A stretch of DNA of 64,000 bases from an uncultured Gemmiger sp. (GTDB taxonomy: Bacteria > Bacillota > Clostridia > Oscillospirales > Ruminococcaceae), in assembly GCA_944386495.1 (NCBI GenBank), contig CALXBE010000002.1, positions 1 to 64,000 of the forward strand, written 5' to 3'. Below are positions 56,114 to 64,000 of the stretch, one piece after another. The position numbers and the translations under genes are program-made. Every line of letters begins with the position of its first letter. The first letter of the stretch is position 1. Under the pieces are notes generated by a model, which did no database searches, was not told the DNA's origin, and saw only the letters and a program-made list of their open reading frames with translations.

Positions 56114-58261
56114 ATGAAAGGTGTGAGGAAACTGAGTCATCTGCCCTTATCCGTCCGAGTTCCCATTGAGGAGAACAACCCCAGTATCCTGCGTGTGGAA
56201 GAAAAGTGCATCCGCTGTGGTATGTGCAAAGAGGCATGTGCCAACCTGATGGGAGTGCATGGGACCTATACCCTGGAGCAAACCGGAGGGAATGCCATCT
56301 GTATCTACTGCGGCCAGTGTGCCAATGCCTGCCCGGTGGACAGCATTGTGGAGCGGGACGAAAGCGCCCAGGTGCAAAAGGCCATTGCCGACCCGGATAA
56401 GGTGGTGGTAGTCAGCACTTCTCCTGCCGTCCGGGCTGCTTTGGGCGAGGAGTTCGGGATGGAACCCGGCGCCTTTGTGGAAGGGAAAATGGTGGCGCTT
56501 CTCCGGGCCTTGGGAGCCGATTATGTGCTGGACACCAATTTCGCTGCAGACCTGACTATTGTGGAGGAGGCCAGTGAATTGATTCGCCGGATTCAGGAAA
56601 AGGACCGGCCTCTGCCCCAGTTCACCAGCTGCTGTCCCGGCTGGGTCCACTTTGCGGAGATTTATGCTCCGGAACTGCTGCCCCACCTGTCCACCGCCAA
56701 AAGCCCCATTGGAATGCAGGGCCCTACGGTGAAAACCTATTTTGCTCAGAAGATGGGTCTGGACCCCAAACAAATCATCCATGTGGCCCTGACTCCATGC
56801 ACTGCTAAAAAGTTTGAAATTCGGCGGGAGGAAATGCACGCTGCCGCCGACTTCCACGGAGTGGAAGGAATGCGGGACACCGACCAGGTCATTACCACCA
56901 GGGAACTGGCCCGGTGGGCCAAGTCTGCCGGAATTGACTGGACGGCCCTGGAAGATTCCGCTTATGATTCCCTCATGGGAAAGGCCTCGGGGGCCGGAGT
57001 CATCTTTGGCAACACCGGCGGAGTGATGGAGGCCGCTCTCCGCACCGCTTACGAGTACCTTACCGGGGAACCCGCTCCCCAGAAGCTGCTGGAACTCAGC
57101 CCGGTCCGGGGATATGAAGGGGTCAGGGAAGCCCAGGTGGAAATCGGAGAACTGAAAATTCAGGTGGCAGTAATTTACGGCACAAAGAATGCCCGGAACT
57201 TCCTGGAAGAGATGAAGCAGAAGGGAAGAGAGTACCACTTTGTGGAGGTCATGGCCTGCCCCGGCGGCTGCATTGGGGGCGGCGGACAGCCCAAGGATCT
57301 GATGAAGGACGGGGACGAAACCCGTAAGAGCCGAATCGCTGCCCTGTATCAGCGGGACCGGTCCATGACCTTGCGGACCAGCCACGAAAATCCTGAAATC
57401 AAAGAGGTATATGAGGCTTTCTACGGTCAGCCTCTCAGCCCGCTGGCGGAACAGATGCTCCATACCAGCTACCGGGACCGGAGCGAACTGCTCCACAGAG
57501 GGGAAGGAAAAGAGCCTGCCTCTGACCTTCTTGTAGAAGAAACAAAAACACCTATGAACCATGAAACAAAACTGAAAGGAGAAAATAAGACTATGAATAA
57601 ATGGAAATGCAAGATTTGCGGCTACATCTATGAGGGGGATGTTCTCCCCGATGACTTCACCTGCCCTCTCTGCAAGCAGCCTGCTTCCTCTTTTGAGCTG
57701 ATCAATCAGGCTCCCGCCCAGGGCGCAGGGAAGTATGCCGGTACCCAGACCGAGAAGAACCTGGAAGCCGCCTTTGCCGGTGAGTCTCAGGCCCGGAACA
57801 AGTACACCTATTTCTCCTCTGTAGCCCAGAACGAAGGGTACGAGCAGATCGCAGCTCTCTTCCTCCAGACCGCAGAAAATGAGAAGGCTCACGCCAGAAT
57901 GTGGTTTGAGGAACTGCACGGTGTAGGAACCACCTCCGAGAACCTGCTCCATGCTGCCGAGGGCGAAAACTACGAGTGGACCGATATGTACGACGGCTTT
58001 GCCAAGACTGCGGAGGAGGAAGGCTTCCCCGAGCTGGCTGCCAAGTTCCGGCTGGTGGCTGCCATTGAGAAGCGCCATGAGGAACGGTATCGCGCTCTGC
58101 TCCACAATGTGGAAACTGCCCAGGTCTTTGAGAAGAGCGAAGTCAAAGTATGGGAGTGCCGGAACTGCGGCCATGTAGTGGTTGGAACTGCTGCCCCCGA
58201 GGTATGCGCTGCCTGCGGCTACTCCAAGAGCTTCTTTGAGATTCATAAAGAGAACTATTGA
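56114..58261 (+). CDS. [FeFe] hydrogenase - rubredoxin - rubrerythrin fusion
   Basis: One 715-residue frame joins three modules. Residues 30-77 hold two [4Fe-4S] motifs ([23 protein letters not shown]). Residues about 90-440 are the H-cluster domain with all signatures: [15 protein letters not shown] and [13 protein letters not shown]. From residue 494 follow a rubredoxin ([17 protein letters not shown]), a rubrerythrin four-helix diiron domain ([29 protein letters not shown]) and a second rubredoxin-like site ([15 protein letters not shown]). The likely role is reduction of H2O2 with electrons from H2. AAAGGAG at 57575-57581 and an in-frame ATG at 57593 could start the rubredoxin-rubrerythrin part alone. 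The first ATG has only a weak ribosome site. Confidence 0.9.
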
Positions 58262-58273
58262 TTTTATAAAGAA

Positions 58274-58315
58274 GGGAGCGCCCCGGAATATCATCCGGGG
58301 CGCTCCCGGTTTTTT
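58274..58315 (+). terminator. Terminator of the hydrogenase fusion gene
   Basis: A perfect 14-bp GC-rich stem (58274-58287 with 58294-58307) followed by a T run. Confidence 0.92.
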
Positions 58316-58393: not shown

Positions 58394-58411
58394 AAGTTGA
58401 CTTTTCAACTT
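58394..58411. promoter_or_regulatory. MarR-type operator 1
   Basis: AAGTTGA-CTTT-TCAACTT is an exact inverted repeat (7-bp arms) covering the -35 of the marR promoter. Confidence 0.7.
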
Positions 58412-58425
58412 TGGGTTGCTATACT
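58397..58425 (+). promoter_or_regulatory. Promoter of the marR operon
   Basis: TTGACT at 58397-58402 and TATACT at 58420-58425 are 17 bases apart with an extended TGC. Confidence 0.8.
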
Positions 58426-58429
58426 GTAA

Positions 58430-58447
58430 AAGTTGCGTTTTCAACAT
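58430..58447. promoter_or_regulatory. MarR-type operator 2
   Basis: AAGTTGCGTTTTCAACAT repeats operator 1 at 15 of 18 positions and lies 36 bases further on, just after the -10. Two copies around one promoter suggest autorepression. Confidence 0.68.
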
Positions 58448-58467: not shown

Positions 58468-58920
58468 ATGGTCGAACGCTTTGATCGTTTTTCGCTGGCA
58501 ATTGCTGAAATCAACCGGTACTGGCACAAACTGGCCGGGGAGGAAATGAAGGTATACGGGCTGAAAGGGGCACATGCCACCTATCTGACCGCTTTATACC
58601 GGTACCCCCAGGGAATCACGGTTCCGGAACTCTGCGAGATCTGCCTGAAGAACAAGTCTGATGCCTCCCGGATGCTGGCCATTCTGGCGGAGAAAGGACT
58701 GGTTCGGAAGGAAGGAAAGCACAAGAGCGGCTACGGCGGAACGGTACAGCTCACCGAGGCGGGGATGGAAGCTTCCCGGCATGTGCGGCAGCGGGTCTGC
58801 CGTGCGGTGGAGGTGGCGGGAAAAGATTTGACCCCTACCCAGCGGGAGGAGTTCTACAAAGCGCTGGAATCCATTACGGAAAACATCCGGACCCTTATTG
58901 ATGAGGGAATTCCGGAATAA
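58468..58920 (+). CDS. MarR-family transcription regulator
   Basis: This 150-residue winged-helix regulator has MarR features: helix GLKGAHATYLTALYRYPQ, the recognition region LKNKSDASRMLAILAEKGLV and the wing HKSGYGGTVQLTEAG. AAGGAG precedes the ATG at 58468; a longer frame opens at 58411. Two near-identical 18-bp repeats sit in its promoter. It heads an apparent operon with a hydrolase, an ene-reductase and aconitase X, and probably responds to their substrate. Confidence 0.92.
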   Translation: MVERFDRFSLAIAEINRYWHKLAGEEMKVYGLKGAHATYLTALYRYPQGITVPELCEICLKNKSDASRMLAILAEKGLVRKEGKHKSGYGGTVQLTEAGMEASRHVRQRVCRAVEVAGKDLTPTQREEFYKALESITENIRTLIDEGIPE

Positions 58921-58944
58921 GCCCAACAGAGAAAGGAACTATCT

Positions 58945-60183
58945 ATGAACCCTGTAGAAGCAAAACCCAAGAAAAACCTGAAAAAGATTCTGCTGACCCT
59001 GGCGGTTGTGGTCCTACTGCTGGTAGTGATTGCTGTGGCTGTCATTTATGGGGTCTGGCACAATGAAATCAGCTCGGTGGCCAGCATTAAAATGCTCCGG
59101 GACCGGAATGATGACCATCTGGACGGTGCCGTCTACTCCATGGAGGTAAAAGGAGACTTTTACCTGGATGATTTTGTGGCCCAGGGCGGTGTCAGCAGTG
59201 ACAGCGAACTGATCCAGTTCATCACCGACAACATCACCAAGGGCGTGGTAAAAATCAACATGACCGCCCCTGAAATCGGCTGTTCCTCCTTTACCGCCAC
59301 CACCCAGGAGGGAGACGCCATCTTTGCCCGGAACTATGACTTCTCCAAGACCAACGCCATGCTGGTCTTTACCCAGGCCAACGAGGGCCGCCATGCCTCC
59401 ATCTCCACAGTGGACCTGCAGTTCCTGGGAGTGGATGTGGACCAGAACATGACCAGCATGATGGACAAAATCCTCTGCCTGGCCGCTCCCTATGCTCCTC
59501 TGGACGGTGTCAATGATGCCGGGGTCAGCTGCGGTATCTACATGACCTACCAGGGCGGGGAGGAGACCGTTGCCACCAGCCAGGATACCGACAAGCCCGA
59601 CTTTACCTCCACCACTCTCCTACGGCTGATTCTGGACTACGCCGACAATGTGGAGGAGGCGGTGGAAATTGCCTCCTCCTATGACCTCCATGACTCTGCC
59701 GTTACCTCCTACCACTACATGGTGGCAGATGCCTCCGGCAAGAGCGCTATCCTGGAATGGACCACCGACGGTGCCGTGGACACCACCGACAACGACGGAA
59801 GCCAGCGGACCCTCAAGGTGATTTACAATGACCAGGACCAGAACATCGGGGAGCGGGAAGCCGCCAGCGATTACCAGATCATCACCAACTTTGTGCTCCA
59901 GCCCGGTTACTATGAGGGCGTTCCCGCCGAGAACAAGAAGGGTGCCGACCGCTATGACCGGCTGTATGAGGAACTCCAGGCCATTGACGGGGTCGTAGCC
60001 GACGAGCAGGGAGCCATGGATATTCTGGAAAGCGTAGGCCGCCGCAGCTGGGACAATGACGACAAGAACAGCTGCACTGTACACAGCGCTGTCTATAACC
60101 TGACCGACAAGAGCGTACTGTGGGTCACCAACGAAAATTACGACGATCCCACAGCCGTGTTTACCTTCTCTTTGGAGGACTGA
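58945..60183 (+). CDS. Membrane-anchored choloylglycine-hydrolase-family (Ntn) enzyme
   Basis: This 412-residue protein has one N-terminal membrane helix (residues about 14-36) and then an Ntn-hydrolase domain of the linear amide C-N hydrolase kind. The likely nucleophile is Cys113 in IGCSSFTA, followed by GDAIFARNYDF as in bile salt hydrolases and penicillin V acylases. GVNDAGVSCGIYM and a late NSCTVHSAVYN also fit. In most relatives the Cys becomes the mature N-terminus, so cleavage before Cys113 is expected or the enzyme is of a different type. It may cleave an amide of a conjugated acid outside the cell. Gap to marR is 24 bases. Confidence 0.78.
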   Translation: MNPVEAKPKKNLKKILLTLAVVVLLLVVIAVAVIYGVWHNEISSVASIKMLRDRNDDHLDGAVYSMEVKGDFYLDDFVAQGGVSSDSELIQFITDNITKGVVKINMTAPEIGCSSFTATTQEGDAIFARNYDFSKTNAMLVFTQANEGRHASISTVDLQFLGVDVDQNMTSMMDKILCLAAPYAPLDGVNDAGVSCGIYMTYQGGEETVATSQDTDKPDFTSTTLLRLILDYADNVEEAVEIASSYDLHDSAVTSYHYMVADASGKSAILEWTTDGAVDTTDNDGSQRTLKVIYNDQDQNIGEREAASDYQIITNFVLQPGYYEGVPAENKKGADRYDRLYEELQAIDGVVADEQGAMDILESVGRRSWDNDDKNSCTVHSAVYNLTDKSVLWVTNENYDDPTAVFTFSLED

Positions 60184-60202
60184 GCAGAAAGGAGCCCTGG
60201 TT

Positions 60203-62260
60203 ATGAATCAGAAGTATGAAGCCCTTTTTACCCCCTGGAAAATCGGTAATGTGGAAATCAAGAACCGGATCGTGCTTTGCCCCATGGGCGGCACCTCCCT
60301 GTTTGGCTGGATGGAGCCCAACCACTTTGACAAGGAAGCTGCCAACTTTTTCCTGGAACGGGCCCGGAACAATGTAGGTCTGATCATCCCCGGCATTGCG
60401 CCCATCCGGGATACCATAGGGGGCCGCTGGCTCTACCAGAACAAAAAGATGTTCCGGGAACTGAAAGACTATATGGAAAAAATCCATGCCACCGGCGCCA
60501 AGCTCTTTGTGCAGCTTACCGCCGGCATGGGCCGGTCCTGGGGCATCTCCGATGAGGTAATGATCCTCCAGAACAATCCGGTCCTCAAGGTTCTGGCAAA
60601 GCCCATCCTGGATGTGGACTATCAGCTGGCCAGCCCCAGCCCCCTGCCTTCCCGCTGGGCGGAAGGGGTCACCTGCCCTGAAATGACCGTAAAGCAGATC
60701 GAGGAAATCATTGAAGCCTTTGCCAAGACTGCGGCTCTCTGCAAGGAGGCCGGGGTTGACGGAGTGGAGGTCCATGCGGTCCATGAGGGCTATCTGCTGG
60801 ACCAGTTTGCCATGAAGTACACCAACCACCGGAAGGACTCCTACGGCGGCAGCTTTGAAAACCGGTACCGTTTCCCGGTGGAAATCGTCAAGGCCATCAA
60901 GGCTGCCTGCGGTCAGGATTACCCTGTATCGGTGCGGTACAGCGCTGTTTCCAAGGTAAAGGATTTCTGCTATGGCGCTCTGCCTGGGGAAGAATATACC
61001 GAAATCGGCCGGGATATGGAGGAGAGCGAGAAGGCCGCCAAGTATCTCCAGGATGCCGGTTATGATATGCTCAACGCTGACAACGGCACCTATGATTCCT
61101 GGTACTGGGCTCATCCGCCCATGTACATGCCCCAGAACTGCAACCTGGAGGATGTGGCCCACATTAAGAAGTTTGTGGACATCCCGGTGGTCTGTGCAGG
61201 ACGGATGGAACCGGATGTGGCGGCTGAGGCCATTGCCCAGGGCCGTATCGACGGCATGGGCGTGGCACGGCAGTTCCTCTCTGATGGGGAGTGGGTGACC
61301 AAGCTGCTGGAGGACCGGATGGAGGACATTCGCCCCTGCATCTGCTGCCATAACGGCTGCTTCAACCTCTGCCATTACAAGGGCCACGCCAACGCCCAGT
61401 CCCTGCCGGACACCCGGGGAATGGCCCGGTGCGCTCTGGACCCCCGGACCATGCAGACCAAAAAGTACCGCATTACCCCCGCTGAGAAGAAAAAGAAAAT
61501 CGCAGTCATCGGCGGCGGCATCGGCGGCATGGAGTCCGCCCTGGTCTGTGCCCAGCGGGGCCATACTGTGACCCTGTATGAAAAGACCGATGCTCTGGGC
61601 GGTGTGTTTGTGGCTGCGGCTGCACCCTCCTTCAAGGAAAAGGACCGGGAACTGCTGGCCTGGTATGCCCGGGAACTGACCAAGTACCCCAACATTACCG
61701 TAATGCTGAACACGCAGGTGGATGACCTGGAAGCCCTGGGGGCCGACGAGGTCATTGTGGCCACCGGTTCCACCCCCGTGAACCTGCCGGTCCCCGGTGC
61801 TGAAAAGGGAATCCAGGCAGTGGATTACCTGCTGGGCCGGGCTCCCGTAGGGGAGAAGGTGGTCATTGTTGGCGGCGGTCTCACCGGCTGCGAAATCGCC
61901 TATGATCTTTACCTCCAGGGCAAACAGCCCACCATTGTGGAGATGAAGGACGATCTGATTGCGGTGAAGGGAGTCTGCCTGGCCAACTCCAGCTACCTCC
62001 GGGACTTCTTCAAGACCAACCAGGTGCCGGTATACCTGGAGACCTCCCTCAAGGAAATCGGAGAGGGAAGCGTCACCGTGGCGGGCAAGGACGGCACCAC
62101 CCGGCAGATCCCGGCGGACTCCGTCATTCTGTCGGTGGGCTATCGTCCCGCTCCTCTGGCTCCCAAAGGCCGCCATGTCCACATCGTGGGAGATGCCAAC
62201 AAGGTAGGCAACCTGCGTACCGTCATCTGGCGGGCCTGGGATGTCTGCATGAAACTGTAA
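60203..62260 (+). CDS. OYE-type NADH:flavin oxidoreductase / 2-enoate reductase (BaiCD/FadH-like)
   Basis: This 685-residue enzyme has an FMN TIM barrel (residues 1-370; FTPWKIGNVEIKNRIVLCPM, VEVHAVHEGYLLDQF, NRYRFPVEIV), a [4Fe-4S] motif CICCHNGC with ARCALDP near residues 380-410, and a C-terminal FAD/NAD domain (VIGGGIGGMESAL near 436, VIVGGGLTGCEIA near 555). This architecture is shared by 2,4-dienoyl-CoA reductase, 2-enoate reductase and BaiCD/BaiH. The reaction is probably C=C reduction with NADH. HEGYLLDQF resembles the bile-acid BaiCD branch, but no other bai gene is present. It starts 19 bases after the hydrolase. Confidence 0.85.
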   Translation: MNQKYEALFTPWKIGNVEIKNRIVLCPMGGTSLFGWMEPNHFDKEAANFFLERARNNVGLIIPGIAPIRDTIGGRWLYQNKKMFRELKDYMEKIHATGAKLFVQLTAGMGRSWGISDEVMILQNNPVLKVLAKPILDVDYQLASPSPLPSRWAEGVTCPEMTVKQIEEIIEAFAKTAALCKEAGVDGVEVHAVHEGYLLDQFAMKYTNHRKDSYGGSFENRYRFPVEIVKAIKAACGQDYPVSVRYSAVSKVKDFCYGALPGEEYTEIGRDMEESEKAAKYLQDAGYDMLNADNGTYDSWYWAHPPMYMPQNCNLEDVAHIKKFVDIPVVCAGRMEPDVAAEAIAQGRIDGMGVARQFLSDGEWVTKLLEDRMEDIRPCICCHNGCFNLCHYKGHANAQSLPDTRGMARCALDPRTMQTKKYRITPAEKKKKIAVIGGGIGGMESALVCAQRGHTVTLYEKTDALGGVFVAAAAPSFKEKDRELLAWYARELTKYPNITVMLNTQVDDLEALGADEVIVATGSTPVNLPVPGAEKGIQAVDYLLGRAPVGEKVVIVGGGLTGCEIAYDLYLQGKQPTIVEMKDDLIAVKGVCLANSSYLRDFFKTNQVPVYLETSLKEIGEGSVTVAGKDGTTRQIPADSVILSVGYRPAPLAPKGRHVHIVGDANKVGNLRTVIWRAWDVCMKL

Positions 62261-62272
62261 GGAGGAATTTCC

Positions 62273-63553
62273 ATGGAACTGACAAAGGAACAGCAGAGGA
62301 TTCTGGACGGCGCCAAGGGCGAAACCATGGCCAAGGTCCTGAAAACCCTGATTATGTACGGCGAAATTTTCGGGGCCGAAAAACTGGTCCCGGTGACCTC
62401 CCAGTATAACCATCTGGTCACCTCCTTCGGCCTCAAGGCCCTGGGACCGGTGTATGACCTGATGAACCAGCTCATTGAGGCGGGGGCTGTATCGGGCCAG
62501 AAATTCTCTGTGGACCCCCGGCCCCTGGACCCCAATGTGCCTGCAAACTTTTTGCAGAACCTGGTTTTCAAAAAGTTCATGTACAGCAAGCAGGACTTTT
62601 ACGAGGGACAGCTCCGGCAGCTTGGCCTGATGAATGAGGATGCGTTCAGCTGCGCCTGCTACCTGGACCAGCAGAATAACCGCCCTGCCCAGGGGGAGGT
62701 GCTCAGCTGGGCCGAATCCTCCGCCGTGGTCTACGCCAACTCGGTGCTGGGGGCACGGTGCAACCGGAACTCCGGTATCATGGACCTGATGGGCTCTGTG
62801 GCTGGGTATGTGCCCTACTTCGGCCTCCTTACAGACGAGGGCCGGAAGGCCACCTGGGTGGTCCGGGTCAACACCACCCAAAAGCCGGAAGCCCAGCTGC
62901 TGGGCTCCGCCATTGGCATGAAGGTGATGGAGGATGTGCCCTATGTGGTAGGTCTGGACCGCTGGCTGGGCAACGAGCTGGACGATGCAGCCTGCGCCTA
63001 CCTGAAAGACTTCGGCGCAGCCACCGCCTCCAACGGTGCAGTGGGTCTTTACCACATTGATGGCCTGACCCCCGAAGCAAAGCAGCAGGGAAAGGACCTG
63101 ATCGTCCCCGGCGCCAGGGAGTATGTCGTTGATGACGCAGAACTCCAGCGGGTCAAGGACAATTACCCTCTTGTCTGGAAAAATCCTGATGCCAAGCCCA
63201 AACTCTGCTTTGTGGGCTGCCCCCATCTCAGTTTGCAGCAGCTGGAGGACTGGACCCTCCGTCTGGAGGAAAGCCTGAAAGCAGCCGGACGGAAAAAGGT
63301 ATGCGTGCCCACCGTATTTACCACCGCTCCCGGAGTGAAAAAGGCTTTTGAAGCCACCGAGTACGGGAAACGGCTGGCCGCTACCGGTGTCATTCTCTCC
63401 TGCATCTGCCCCCTTATGTACATGAATAACCCCCTCTGCGGGCCCATGCCGGTGATTACCTGCTCCAACAAGCTGCGCACCTACACCACCGCCCGGTACT
63501 ACACCGAGGGGGAGATTCTGGAAAAAATCACGAAAGGAGAAGCCCGGAAATGA
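62273..63553 (+). CDS. acnX: Aconitase X catalytic (large) subunit
   Basis: This 426-residue protein fits the aconitase X large domain (AcnX_cat, formerly DUF521): MELTKEQQRILDG..., NHLVTSFGLKALGP, YANSVLGARCNRNSGIMDL with an iron-sulfur Cys, and CPHLSLQQLEDW. Known AcnX enzymes dehydrate cis-3-hydroxy-L-proline or, in archaea, mevalonate 5-phosphate; others are unassigned. Two late Cys (SCICPLMYMNN and CGPMPVITCSN) may hold the cluster. It follows the ene-reductase by 12 bases behind GGAGG. Confidence 0.9.
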   Translation: MELTKEQQRILDGAKGETMAKVLKTLIMYGEIFGAEKLVPVTSQYNHLVTSFGLKALGPVYDLMNQLIEAGAVSGQKFSVDPRPLDPNVPANFLQNLVFKKFMYSKQDFYEGQLRQLGLMNEDAFSCACYLDQQNNRPAQGEVLSWAESSAVVYANSVLGARCNRNSGIMDLMGSVAGYVPYFGLLTDEGRKATWVVRVNTTQKPEAQLLGSAIGMKVMEDVPYVVGLDRWLGNELDDAACAYLKDFGAATASNGAVGLYHIDGLTPEAKQQGKDLIVPGAREYVVDDAELQRVKDNYPLVWKNPDAKPKLCFVGCPHLSLQQLEDWTLRLEESLKAAGRKKVCVPTVFTTAPGVKKAFEATEYGKRLAATGVILSCICPLMYMNNPLCGPMPVITCSNKLRTYTTARYYTEGEILEKITKGEARK

Positions 63554-64000
63554 AAGAATTCAAAGGACGCGTGGTGGCTCCCGGCACGGTGAGCGCACCT
63601 GCTCTTGTCTCCCACGGGGGACTGAACACCCTGGCCTCCTTCCAGAAGGCGCTCCAGTTCGGAGACAAAAACGCCACCTGCGGAGACCAGAATAACCCTG
63701 ACCTTTACGGCAAGCCCATGGCAGGCAAGGTCCTCTGCCTGCCCCAGACCATCGGCTCTACTACCGGGGGACTGGTGCTCTACTGCGCCTGCTCCATGAA
63801 CCGGCAGCCCGCCTGCCTGCTTTTCTCCAACCCCATCGACTCTCTGGCCGCCGCCGGGTCGGTGCTGGCCGCTGTCTGGCTGGAGAATATCCAGATGCCG
63901 GTAGTGGATTGCCTGGGAGAGGAGTTCCTTGGCTATGTCCGGGACGGCATGACCATCACCGTCAAGGAGGACGGTCTGGTCTGTGTGGAGGAGAACGGCC
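63550..64000 (+). CDS. Aconitase X swivel (small) subunit, 3'-truncated by window end
   Basis: The ATG at 63550 overlaps the AcnX stop in ATGA and the frame stays open to the window edge for 150 codons. The sequence (MKEFKGRVVAPGTVSAPALV, LPQTIGSTTGGLVLYCACSM, KEDGLVCVEENG) is the swivel domain (DUF126), with the conserved Ser of GSTTGG as the expected active-site residue. It forms the heterodimer with the large subunit. Confidence 0.9.
   Translation, partial: MKEFKGRVVAPGTVSAPALVSHGGLNTLASFQKALQFGDKNATCGDQNNPDLYGKPMAGKVLCLPQTIGSTTGGLVLYCACSMNRQPACLLFSNPIDSLAAAGSVLAAVWLENIQMPVVDCLGEEFLGYVRDGMTITVKEDGLVCVEENG

Follow-up and report, generated by a model that had tools for sequence, protein, structure and literature searches.

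A gene cassette of gut Clostridia pairing aconitase X with an Fe-S flavoenzyme, with a putative MarR operator and a possible role in acyl-chain salvage

Introduction

Aconitase X (AcnX) enzymes remove water from carboxylic acids that have a proton at C2 and a hydroxyl at C3 (PMC8184944). The described enzymes closest to the one studied here are the archaeal mevalonate-5-phosphate dehydratase TkAcnX (type IIb; PDB 7cnr/7cns) and the cis-3-hydroxyproline dehydratases (types I and IIa); types IIc to IIf lack the landmark residues of both (PMC8184944), and the functions of these bacterial subfamilies were stated in 2023 to be unknown (PMC10040528). We describe an operon at 58468-64005 of contig CALXBE010000002.1 of an uncultured Gemmiger sp., of which the first 64,000 nucleotides (the window) were analyzed. 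It encodes a MarR-family regulator, an N-terminal nucleophile (Ntn) amide hydrolase, an Fe-S flavoenzyme of the old yellow enzyme (OYE) type, and the large and small subunits of an AcnX (AcnX_L and AcnX_S).

Like TkAcnX, the window AcnX has split subunits with the cluster cysteines at the type-II positions, and it has the catalytic serine and the carboxylate-binding residues in common with this enzyme, which is its best fold and sequence match. It differs in that the TkAcnX phosphate loop Gly48-Val49-Ser50 is replaced by a longer H-x-V-T-S-F loop and Asn79 by Asp81 with a DPRPxD insert. The hydroxyproline dehydratases belong to the same family and the same dehydration chemistry is expected, but the window AcnX appears to lack a counterpart of their Asp203.

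Like the gut clostridial enzymes BaiCD, BilR, 2-enoate reductase FldZ and daidzein reductase, the flavoenzyme has an FMN domain and an FAD/NAD domain. In its putative Fe-S motif, 23 residues precede the fourth cysteine, compared with the 11-13 given for the family in PMC11574389, which also states that the functions of most Fe-S flavoenzymes of this type are unknown. Clostridial 2-enoate reductases use NADH to reduce free 2-enoates (PMC5882074).

The hydrolase shares its fold and the pattern of a Cys with Arg/Asp with choloylglycine hydrolase, penicillin V acylase and the C45 family; it differs from these by an N-terminal hydrophobic helix and has 12-18% identity in the structural matches listed. 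As to regulation, the closest parallel is the regulon of FabT, a MarR repressor of fatty-acid synthesis in Lactobacillales. Compared by operator style and gene position, the two are alike in that the MarR gene is the first gene of its own operon, that TTGA-type palindromes are present at promoters and that the context is acyl metabolism (PMC13046290, PMC8406281). They differ in operator sequence and in that the partners of the window-type operator are salvage-type genes; salvage-type genes in FabT species are not under FabT (PMC13046290).

Results

OYE and AcnX form the core of the cassette. An AcnX_L scan of GTDB contigs matched at least 593 stretches, at least 567 of which encode a relative, and we analyzed the best 80 of 567 relatives (75-98% identity), which are from gut Clostridia. 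Most of these loci are metagenome bins, genes away from the cassette were called with an in-house script, and all counts and single Fisher tests treat kin loci as independent. In 76 of the 80 loci, an OYE gene is located within 1.7 kb of AcnX on the same strand, with a median gap of 24 bases. Three of the four exceptions are at contig ends and were kept as misses (L055 and L083, with 154 and 249 bases upstream of AcnX, and L102, with 70 bases downstream), while in the fourth, L103, a fragment of an OYE gene lies 8 kb upstream. AcnX_S follows AcnX_L in 79 loci, and a MarR gene and an Ntn hydrolase gene are present in 13 and 8 loci, respectively. No other gene, and no transporter, recurs beside the cassette in many of the 80 loci as a third fixed partner.

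In a tree of 48 chosen AcnX_L representatives, from which the fragment L186 was left out, a long branch with a support of 100/100 sets 28 rows (the clade AcnX) apart from 20 further AcnX found in the same phylum. An adjoining OYE is present in 23 of the 28 clade rows vs 0 of the 20 others (Fisher p 3e-9, on related rows); throughout the loci of these 20, no OYE was detected at E 1e-5, and 16 of them have 1.7 kb on both sides. The association extends to genomes in which the genes are unlinked. G025 and G417, with a clade AcnX lacking an adjacent OYE, encode a window-type OYE elsewhere (70% and 75% identity); the two genes are on different contigs in G025 and G137 and 14 kb apart in G417. G014, the AcnX of which is at a contig end, has an OYE of the 750-aa type elsewhere (35%). 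L102 and L103, described above, make up the rest of the five clade rows in which no OYE adjoins AcnX. Among 148 genomes of the family, including that of the window, AcnX above the cut-off is present in 10 of the 11 with a window-type OYE of at least 69% identity vs 3 of the 137 without (Fisher p 3e-12).

The partner OYE comes in several types. Besides the window type of 685 aa, there are proteins of 724-755 aa in L112, L152, L153 and L155, and L154 has a 41-45% type and L156 one of 34-39%. The partner is encoded either ahead of AcnX_L or behind AcnX_S. In a tree of 61 OYE rows, which leaves out OYEs under 560 aa and two duplicates, the label "AcnX linked" needs 8 changes, at least 6 of which are forced by well-supported branches. 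Because OYE types and gene orders vary and the pairing persists, we conclude that clade AcnX retains an OYE partner even where the OYE has been replaced or the genes rearranged. The core unit is OYE-AcnX_L-AcnX_S. The first-pass annotation had proposed that hydrolase, ene-reductase and AcnX form one set, an idea that would fail if the genes scattered independently in relatives. For the ene-reductase and AcnX this proposal stands, both in the 76 loci and where the genes are unlinked; for the hydrolase as a core member it does not, although the hydrolase remains linked to the cassette.

The window operon has five genes. As described in the first-pass annotation, five genes run in one direction with a spacing of 24, 19, 12 and -4 bases; gene coordinates as well as family matches bear this out, and the genes are intact. 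The arrangement is not due to chance, as the OYE and AcnX genes are paired again in 76 of 80 loci. The operon and its control region comprise the following features:

58397..58425, + strand, promoter-like TTGACT-17-TATACT, 10/12 consensus matches, same place in relatives
58394..58411, no strand assigned, putative MarR operator 1, AAGTTGACTTTTCAACTT, overlapping the -35 box, same place in relatives
58430..58447, no strand assigned, putative MarR operator 2, AAGTTGCGTTTTCAACAT, downstream of the -10 box, same place in relatives
58468..58920, + strand, MarR-family regulator, first gene of the operon, 150 aa, PF12802 (MarR_2) 40.6 bits
58945..60183, + strand, Ntn amide hydrolase of the C45/AAT/choloylglycine-hydrolase superfamily, 412 aa, NF040521 87.5 bits vs a cut-off of 85
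60203..62260, + strand, Fe-S flavoenzyme of the OYE / 2,4-dienoyl-CoA reductase type, 685 aa, Oxidored_FMN 190.5 and Pyr_redox_2 114.4 bits
62273..63553, + strand, AcnX large subunit, 426 aa, PF04412 297 bits
63550..64000, ending at 64005 on the contig, + strand, AcnX small (swivel) subunit, 151 aa, PF01989 46 bits

All five proteins exceed the cut-offs of curated families (MarR_2; AAT/CBAH and C45; Oxidored_FMN and Pyr_redox_2; AcnX; AcnX swivel). The MarR open reading frame opens at TTG 58411, and the start at ATG 58468 gives the 150-aa form. Inspection of the DNA past 64000, as suggested in the first-pass annotation, placed the end of AcnX_S five bases beyond the window (L002 7551-8006 ends at window position 64005). 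The gene that follows is on the minus strand and convergent with the operon, which is therefore complete with five genes.

Clade AcnX has the catalytic residues of the family and appears to lack the landmarks of both known substrates. AcnX_L matches PF04412 with 297 bits (cut-off 31.5) and AcnX_S matches PF01989 with 46 bits (cut-off 27), and the split subunits are those of type II. The structural model of AcnX_L (mean pLDDT 80, with values <50 at residues 147-166 beside the active site) has TkAcnX 7cnr as its best match (E 1.9e-24), and the PDB chain closest to AcnX_S is the TkAcnX small subunit, with the Gly-Ser-Thr holding the catalytic serine being kept. Cys127, Glu148, Ser149, Cys316, Cys379, Lys400 and Tyr404 are invariant in 21 AcnX_L sequences. 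The first four align with TkAcnX Cys110, Glu129, Ser130 and Cys283; the AtAcnX residues aligned with Cys379 and Lys400 are Cys508 and Lys530 (allowing for ten tag residues), which have been equated with Tk Cys342 and Lys361 (PMC8184944), and Tyr404 is placed by spacing. Thus, the three cluster cysteines, the Glu/Ser/Lys/Tyr site and the small-subunit Ser that define an AcnX are all present.

The phosphate-binding residues Gly48, Val49, Ser50, Asn53 and Asn79 of mevalonate-5-phosphate dehydratase were not found at the aligned places, the loop being ambiguous by up to 3 residues. Clade AcnX has the H-x-V-T-S-F loop, with variants, at this place, and Asp81 is followed by Arg83 (sometimes Lys or Gln). 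Clade AcnX also has Arg402 between Lys400 and Tyr404; L156, the most distant row, lacks both the DPRPxD insert and Arg402. At the position aligned with Asp203, which contacts the ring nitrogen in AtAcnX, the window protein has Val49/Thr50, and clade rows are mostly alike, in an alignment uncertain by up to 3 residues; L151 has an Asp at position 53. Judging from these alignments, clade AcnX appears to lack the landmark residues of both known AcnX substrates.

The flavoenzyme and the hydrolase. The OYE has the FMN and FAD/NAD domains and a putative Fe-S motif, CX2CX3CX23C, from residue 379. This motif is present in 16 of 19 AcnX-linked window-type OYEs, while L046, L105 and L118 do not match the motif pattern. 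Two known activities were rejected, i.e., bile-acid reduction by BaiCD (353.9 bits vs an NCBIfam cut-off of 825) and bilirubin reduction (345.4 bits vs a cut-off of 750).

The Ntn hydrolase scores 87.5 bits (cut-off 85) as a C45 member, and its model (mean pLDDT 84) matches choloylglycine hydrolases (3hbc, E 2.4e-13). It has a long N-terminal hydrophobic helix, and Cys113, Arg129, Asp132 and Asn190 are invariant in 14 sequences, with Cys113 the likely nucleophile. The penicillin V amidase model scores 22.4 bits vs a cut-off of 600, and a PHROGs scan of the protein gave no match. With the gene in only 8 of the 80 loci, some of which are cut at contig ends, the hydrolase is not core and is optional; it is upstream of the cassette in seven of them and downstream of AcnX_S in L098. 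The hydrolase is still tied to the cassette: in two overlapping genome samples, one from the family (148) and one from the class (291), each including that of the window, a copy with at least 64% identity was found in five genomes and lies beside the cassette in four (G000, G110, G058 and G765) and not in the fifth (G081).

A putative palindromic operator overlaps the operon promoter. Two palindromes with the consensus GTTGA-N4-TCAAC span 58394-58445, the first overlapping the promoter and the second following it. The region contains 3 promoter-like sites vs 2.3 in shuffled sequences, and the consensus match alone is therefore weak evidence; that the promoter is in the same place in relatives supports it. 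The operator pattern, which was read off the two sites themselves, has 2 matches in the window vs 0.02 expected. In the 1.89-Mb genome to which the window belongs, the exact operator is present only at these two sites; allowing one mismatch gives two more, vs two for a control. In 14 of 14 loci viewed, including the window, the shorter form GTTG-N6-CAAC is located within 80 bases of the MarR start, at MarR identities down to 30%, and is weaker in L058, L068 and L076.

For a wider count, we used 68 loci, i.e., those of the 80 with an OYE and enough upstream DNA plus the loci of the window and L226; upstream DNA under 700 bases was excluded in collecting loci and under 400 in counting operators. 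GTTGA-N4-TCAAC with at most one mismatch precedes 37 of 68 cassettes (28 exactly) vs 0 of 279 other genes of the same loci, in a set in which the operon heads (MarR or Ntn starts) of several loci were set by hand after the motif had been seen in relatives.

In relatives, the operator also precedes genes of lipid-type families. We searched WWGTTGANNNNTCAACWW in 20 genomes, all of which were chosen for an operator at their cassette, and found 46 sites in 19 of them, while the reversed pattern gave 3. Of the 46 sites, 17 belong to cassettes, and because of how the genomes were picked, only the other 29, which map to 23 regions, count as evidence. In 12 of the 23 regions (L250, L254, L257, L258, L261, L262, L264, L266, L268, L270, L271 and L272), the operator is followed, either immediately or with a MarR gene in between, by DegV, FakA-type or AMP-binding ligase genes, with MarR-ligase-DegV-FakA in one row in L266. 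The operator also heads an aldehyde dehydrogenase (ALDH) gene in L235, a diacylglycerol-kinase-type (DAGK) gene in L265, and the row iron-containing alcohol dehydrogenase (Fe-ADH)-ALDH-Ntn hydrolase (68%) in L256, which belongs to the genome of L072, where the cassette is on another contig. Altogether, DegV, FakA-type, AMP-binding, DAGK, ALDH or Fe-ADH genes follow the operator in 15 of the 23 regions.

DegV accounts for 8 of 114 genes in 20 fetched operator regions vs 4 of 942 around cassettes (p 5e-6), in a count that used three queries from the operator regions themselves, includes a weak match in L260 that is not behind the operator, and does not include the DegV of L254, which the gene caller missed and which was seen later. 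DegV is also part of the cassette operon in L080 and closely follows the cassette in L076, as ALDH does in L079. In L226 (G765), MarR, Fe-ADH, ALDH, Ntn hydrolase, OYE, AcnX_L and AcnX_S form one row behind two operators. Thus, the five-gene set proposed in the first-pass annotation holds for the window and is larger in relatives, where Fe-ADH, ALDH, DegV, FakA-type and acyl-ligase genes come under the same operator. The ALDH matches class-3 chains, and its second-best PDB match is named fatty aldehyde dehydrogenase, a chain which we take to be the human enzyme.

Surroundings of the operon and other occurrences of its genes. Upstream of the operon, 56114-58261 holds one 715-aa open reading frame that fuses a group-A [FeFe] hydrogenase to rubrerythrin with rubredoxin-like domains; this fusion, also of 715 aa, is present in L032. 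The following feature would close this gene:

58274..58307, + strand, terminator-like stem of 14 pairs followed by a T run

It is the longest stem among 11 terminator-like sites in the region, vs 6.8 (sd 3.0) in shuffled sequences.

Cassette genes were also observed in other settings. L228 (MT837347.1), a human faecal record titled "UNVERIFIED: Bacteriophage sp.", holds OYE, AcnX_L and AcnX_S; it is likely a bacterial contig and places the cassette in a human gut sample. The AcnX pair of Rhodococcus opacus PD630, an aerobic actinobacterium (L229:15001-16730; 48% identity), is inside an aromatic-acid island, near an LLM-class flavin oxidoreductase and a cysteine hydrolase. Five Enterococcus raffinosus plasmid records contain a 44% OYE; for the one record that was inspected, the genes listed around the OYE include no AcnX. 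In L116, L119 and L122, a window-type OYE (69-70%) located elsewhere adjoins a 517-aa gene, which encodes a flavoprotein in L116 and L119 and is amine-oxidase-like in L119; L116 and L119 also carry a 2Fe-2S ferredoxin-reductase-like gene near the OYE. In L165, an AcnX of another branch shares a same-strand run of genes with an RraA-like aldolase and an FAD_binding_2 (fumarate-reductase-type) protein, possibly a second dehydratase plus ene-reductase set.

Discussion

We consider the best explanation of the cassette to be that a free beta-hydroxy acid is first dehydrated and then reduced. The acid would most likely be a 3-hydroxy fatty acid, and the cassette would be part of a regulon for the salvage of acyl chains. 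We give this explanation roughly even weight. We infer both the direction of the reaction and the substrate class. In this pathway, the membrane-anchored Ntn hydrolase, where present, would release 3-hydroxy fatty acids from amide-linked lipids. AcnX_L/AcnX_S would take water from the beta-hydroxy carboxylic acid, with the small-subunit serine abstracting the C2 proton and the leaving OH going to the iron-sulfur cluster held by the three cysteines. The Fe-S flavoenzyme, presumably with NADH, would then reduce the resulting 2-enoate, and the plain saturated acids would serve the cell's own use. The cassette contains no CoA ligase, and the conversion is apparently CoA free. MarR would repress its own operon via the two palindromes around the promoter.

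Acyl chains are suggested as the most likely substrates by the genes that the operator heads in relatives, which belong to the families of fatty-acid-binding DegV/FakB, fatty-acid kinase FakA, acyl ligases, class-3 ALDH and Fe-ADH. 3-Hydroxy fatty acids are often amide linked in bacterial lipids, which would also explain the amide hydrolase. Sphingosine breakdown, which also involves a fatty aldehyde dehydrogenase and the reduction of a 2-enoic acid, is a possible source of acyl chains. An activity on fatty acids would, to our knowledge, be the first known in the aconitase superfamily, and we know of no earlier link to lipids for AcnX and Fe-S flavoenzymes of the cassette type. A role in filling a gap in fatty-acid synthesis was rejected because the genome of the window itself has FabZ and FabK-type matches 3 kb apart on C7, the latter with 407.7 bits, under the cut-off of 453.1.

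Several observations weigh against this explanation. The substrate itself is something we infer, and the characterised 2-enoate reductase FldZ did not accept aliphatic enoates (PMC5882074). As to the operator, 31 of the 68 cassette promoters lack it at one mismatch, and the 37 with it were counted on loci that include the window and the 14 relatives from which the motif was derived. Eight of the 23 regions away from cassettes have no clear lipid gene behind the operator, i.e., an M28 peptidase gene (L255), genes for Crp-type regulators (L238, L260 and L269), unclear genes (L263 and L273), a MarR gene with ALDH 1.15 kb further (L259), and a MarR gene divergent from an M20 amidohydrolase gene (L267). 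Several sites are flanked by divergent genes, either of which they could serve. The DegV, FakA-type, ligase, ALDH and Fe-ADH proteins score below NCBIfam equivalog cut-offs (FakB1 151/350 for DegV, FakA 487/975, long-chain ligase 226-276/476), and the best models for ALDH and Fe-ADH are benzaldehyde dehydrogenase (436/550) and lactaldehyde reductase (306/523); these are therefore family-level names. Because the genome of the window (81% complete) has exact operators only here, the lipid link is borrowed from relatives, and since relatives can hold several MarR paralogues, "regulon" may mean parallel local switches. Regarding the core pair, G069 carries the OYE without AcnX, and the R. opacus PD630 plasmid has a clade AcnX without an OYE within 15 kb (31 kb viewed). 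Finally, the clade-specific Arg402 beside Lys400/Tyr404 could bind a second acidic group rather than accommodate an acyl tail.

This arginine, together with the basic or polar residue (Arg83, Lys or Gln) after Asp81, favors the same two-step chemistry on a small polar beta-hydroxy acid. The acid could be citrate, 3-hydroxy-3-methylglutarate or a different di- or tricarboxylate of plant or host origin, and its conversion would provide an electron sink; the lipid genes would have the operator in common because MarR senses the general acyl or membrane state. The archaeal AcnX relative acts on a tertiary-alcohol acid (PMC8184944), and ruminants are named in the titles of 49 of the 80 records. However, there is no recurrent transporter next to the cassette, and the operator partners are largely lipid genes; we regard a polar substrate as possible rather than probable.

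The lipid link is compatible with either direction of the reaction. The flavoenzyme might thus act first on a polyunsaturated or oxo acid, with AcnX then hydrating the product, for detoxification or biohydrogenation of exogenous fatty acids; the reaction of the archaeal AcnX can run both ways, and its assay followed the hydration (PMC10040528). Both characterised AcnX activities are, however, described as dehydrations in their pathways (PMC8184944), and we find this order unlikely.

Third, AcnX could make pyrroline-2-carboxylate from 3-hydroxyproline, with OYE replacing the usual reductase. This is a known AcnX activity (PMC5144071), and in L154, but in no other of the five partly annotated loci L152-L156, a proline-racemase-family gene adjoins the cassette on the other strand. 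Against this, the position aligned with AtAcnX Asp203 holds Val or Thr (within the alignment uncertainty given above), and the AcnX of L163, which has proline-racemase- and ornithine-cyclodeaminase-family neighbors of the hydroxyproline type, sits on a different branch from clade AcnX. On the basis of landmark residue, tree and neighbors, we rejected 3-hydroxyproline as the main substrate, consider this pathway highly improbable, and no longer favor it as the first test substrate, as which it had been put forward. Least credible of all is a mobile or selfish operon whose genes travel together with unrelated functions, as the many unrelated genomic settings of the cassette and the lack of any other neighbor conserved in many loci might suggest, because AcnX and OYE co-occur unlinked in G025, G137 and G417 and AcnX pairs with different OYE subfamilies.

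Returning to acyl chains as the substrate, a more far-reaching and tentative proposal is that gut Clostridia own a dedicated CoA- and ACP-free route to ordinary saturated fatty acids. It would start from 3-hydroxy fatty acids that other gut microbes carry in amide linkage, in the sphingolipids and N-acyl amino acids of Bacteroides or in lipid A. The anchored Ntn hydrolase would free the acid, AcnX and the enoate reductase would remove the hydroxyl, ALDH and Fe-ADH would handle aldehyde and alcohol forms, FakA/FakB would load the membrane, and one MarR operator would switch the set.

In the open-licence PMC literature, with subscription papers outside the search, we found no paper joining AcnX with an enoate reductase and none linking R. 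opacus with aconitase X. The putative palindromic operator at the cassette promoter, and the genes carrying it in relatives, are new here. The analysis pairs a member of the AcnX family with a member of the Fe-S flavoenzymes and adds an operator and a tie to fatty-acid-type genes, which narrows the search for the substrate to something that one assay can test; the relative in R. opacus PD630 offers an aerobic strain for work on clade AcnX. Many gut bacteria have a switchable gene set by which, most likely, a hydroxyl is stripped from an acid that is then saturated, and signs in the control region suggest that this acid is a fatty acid from the lipids of other cells. If the acyl-chain explanation is true, the cassette would represent lipid cross-feeding between gut bacteria.

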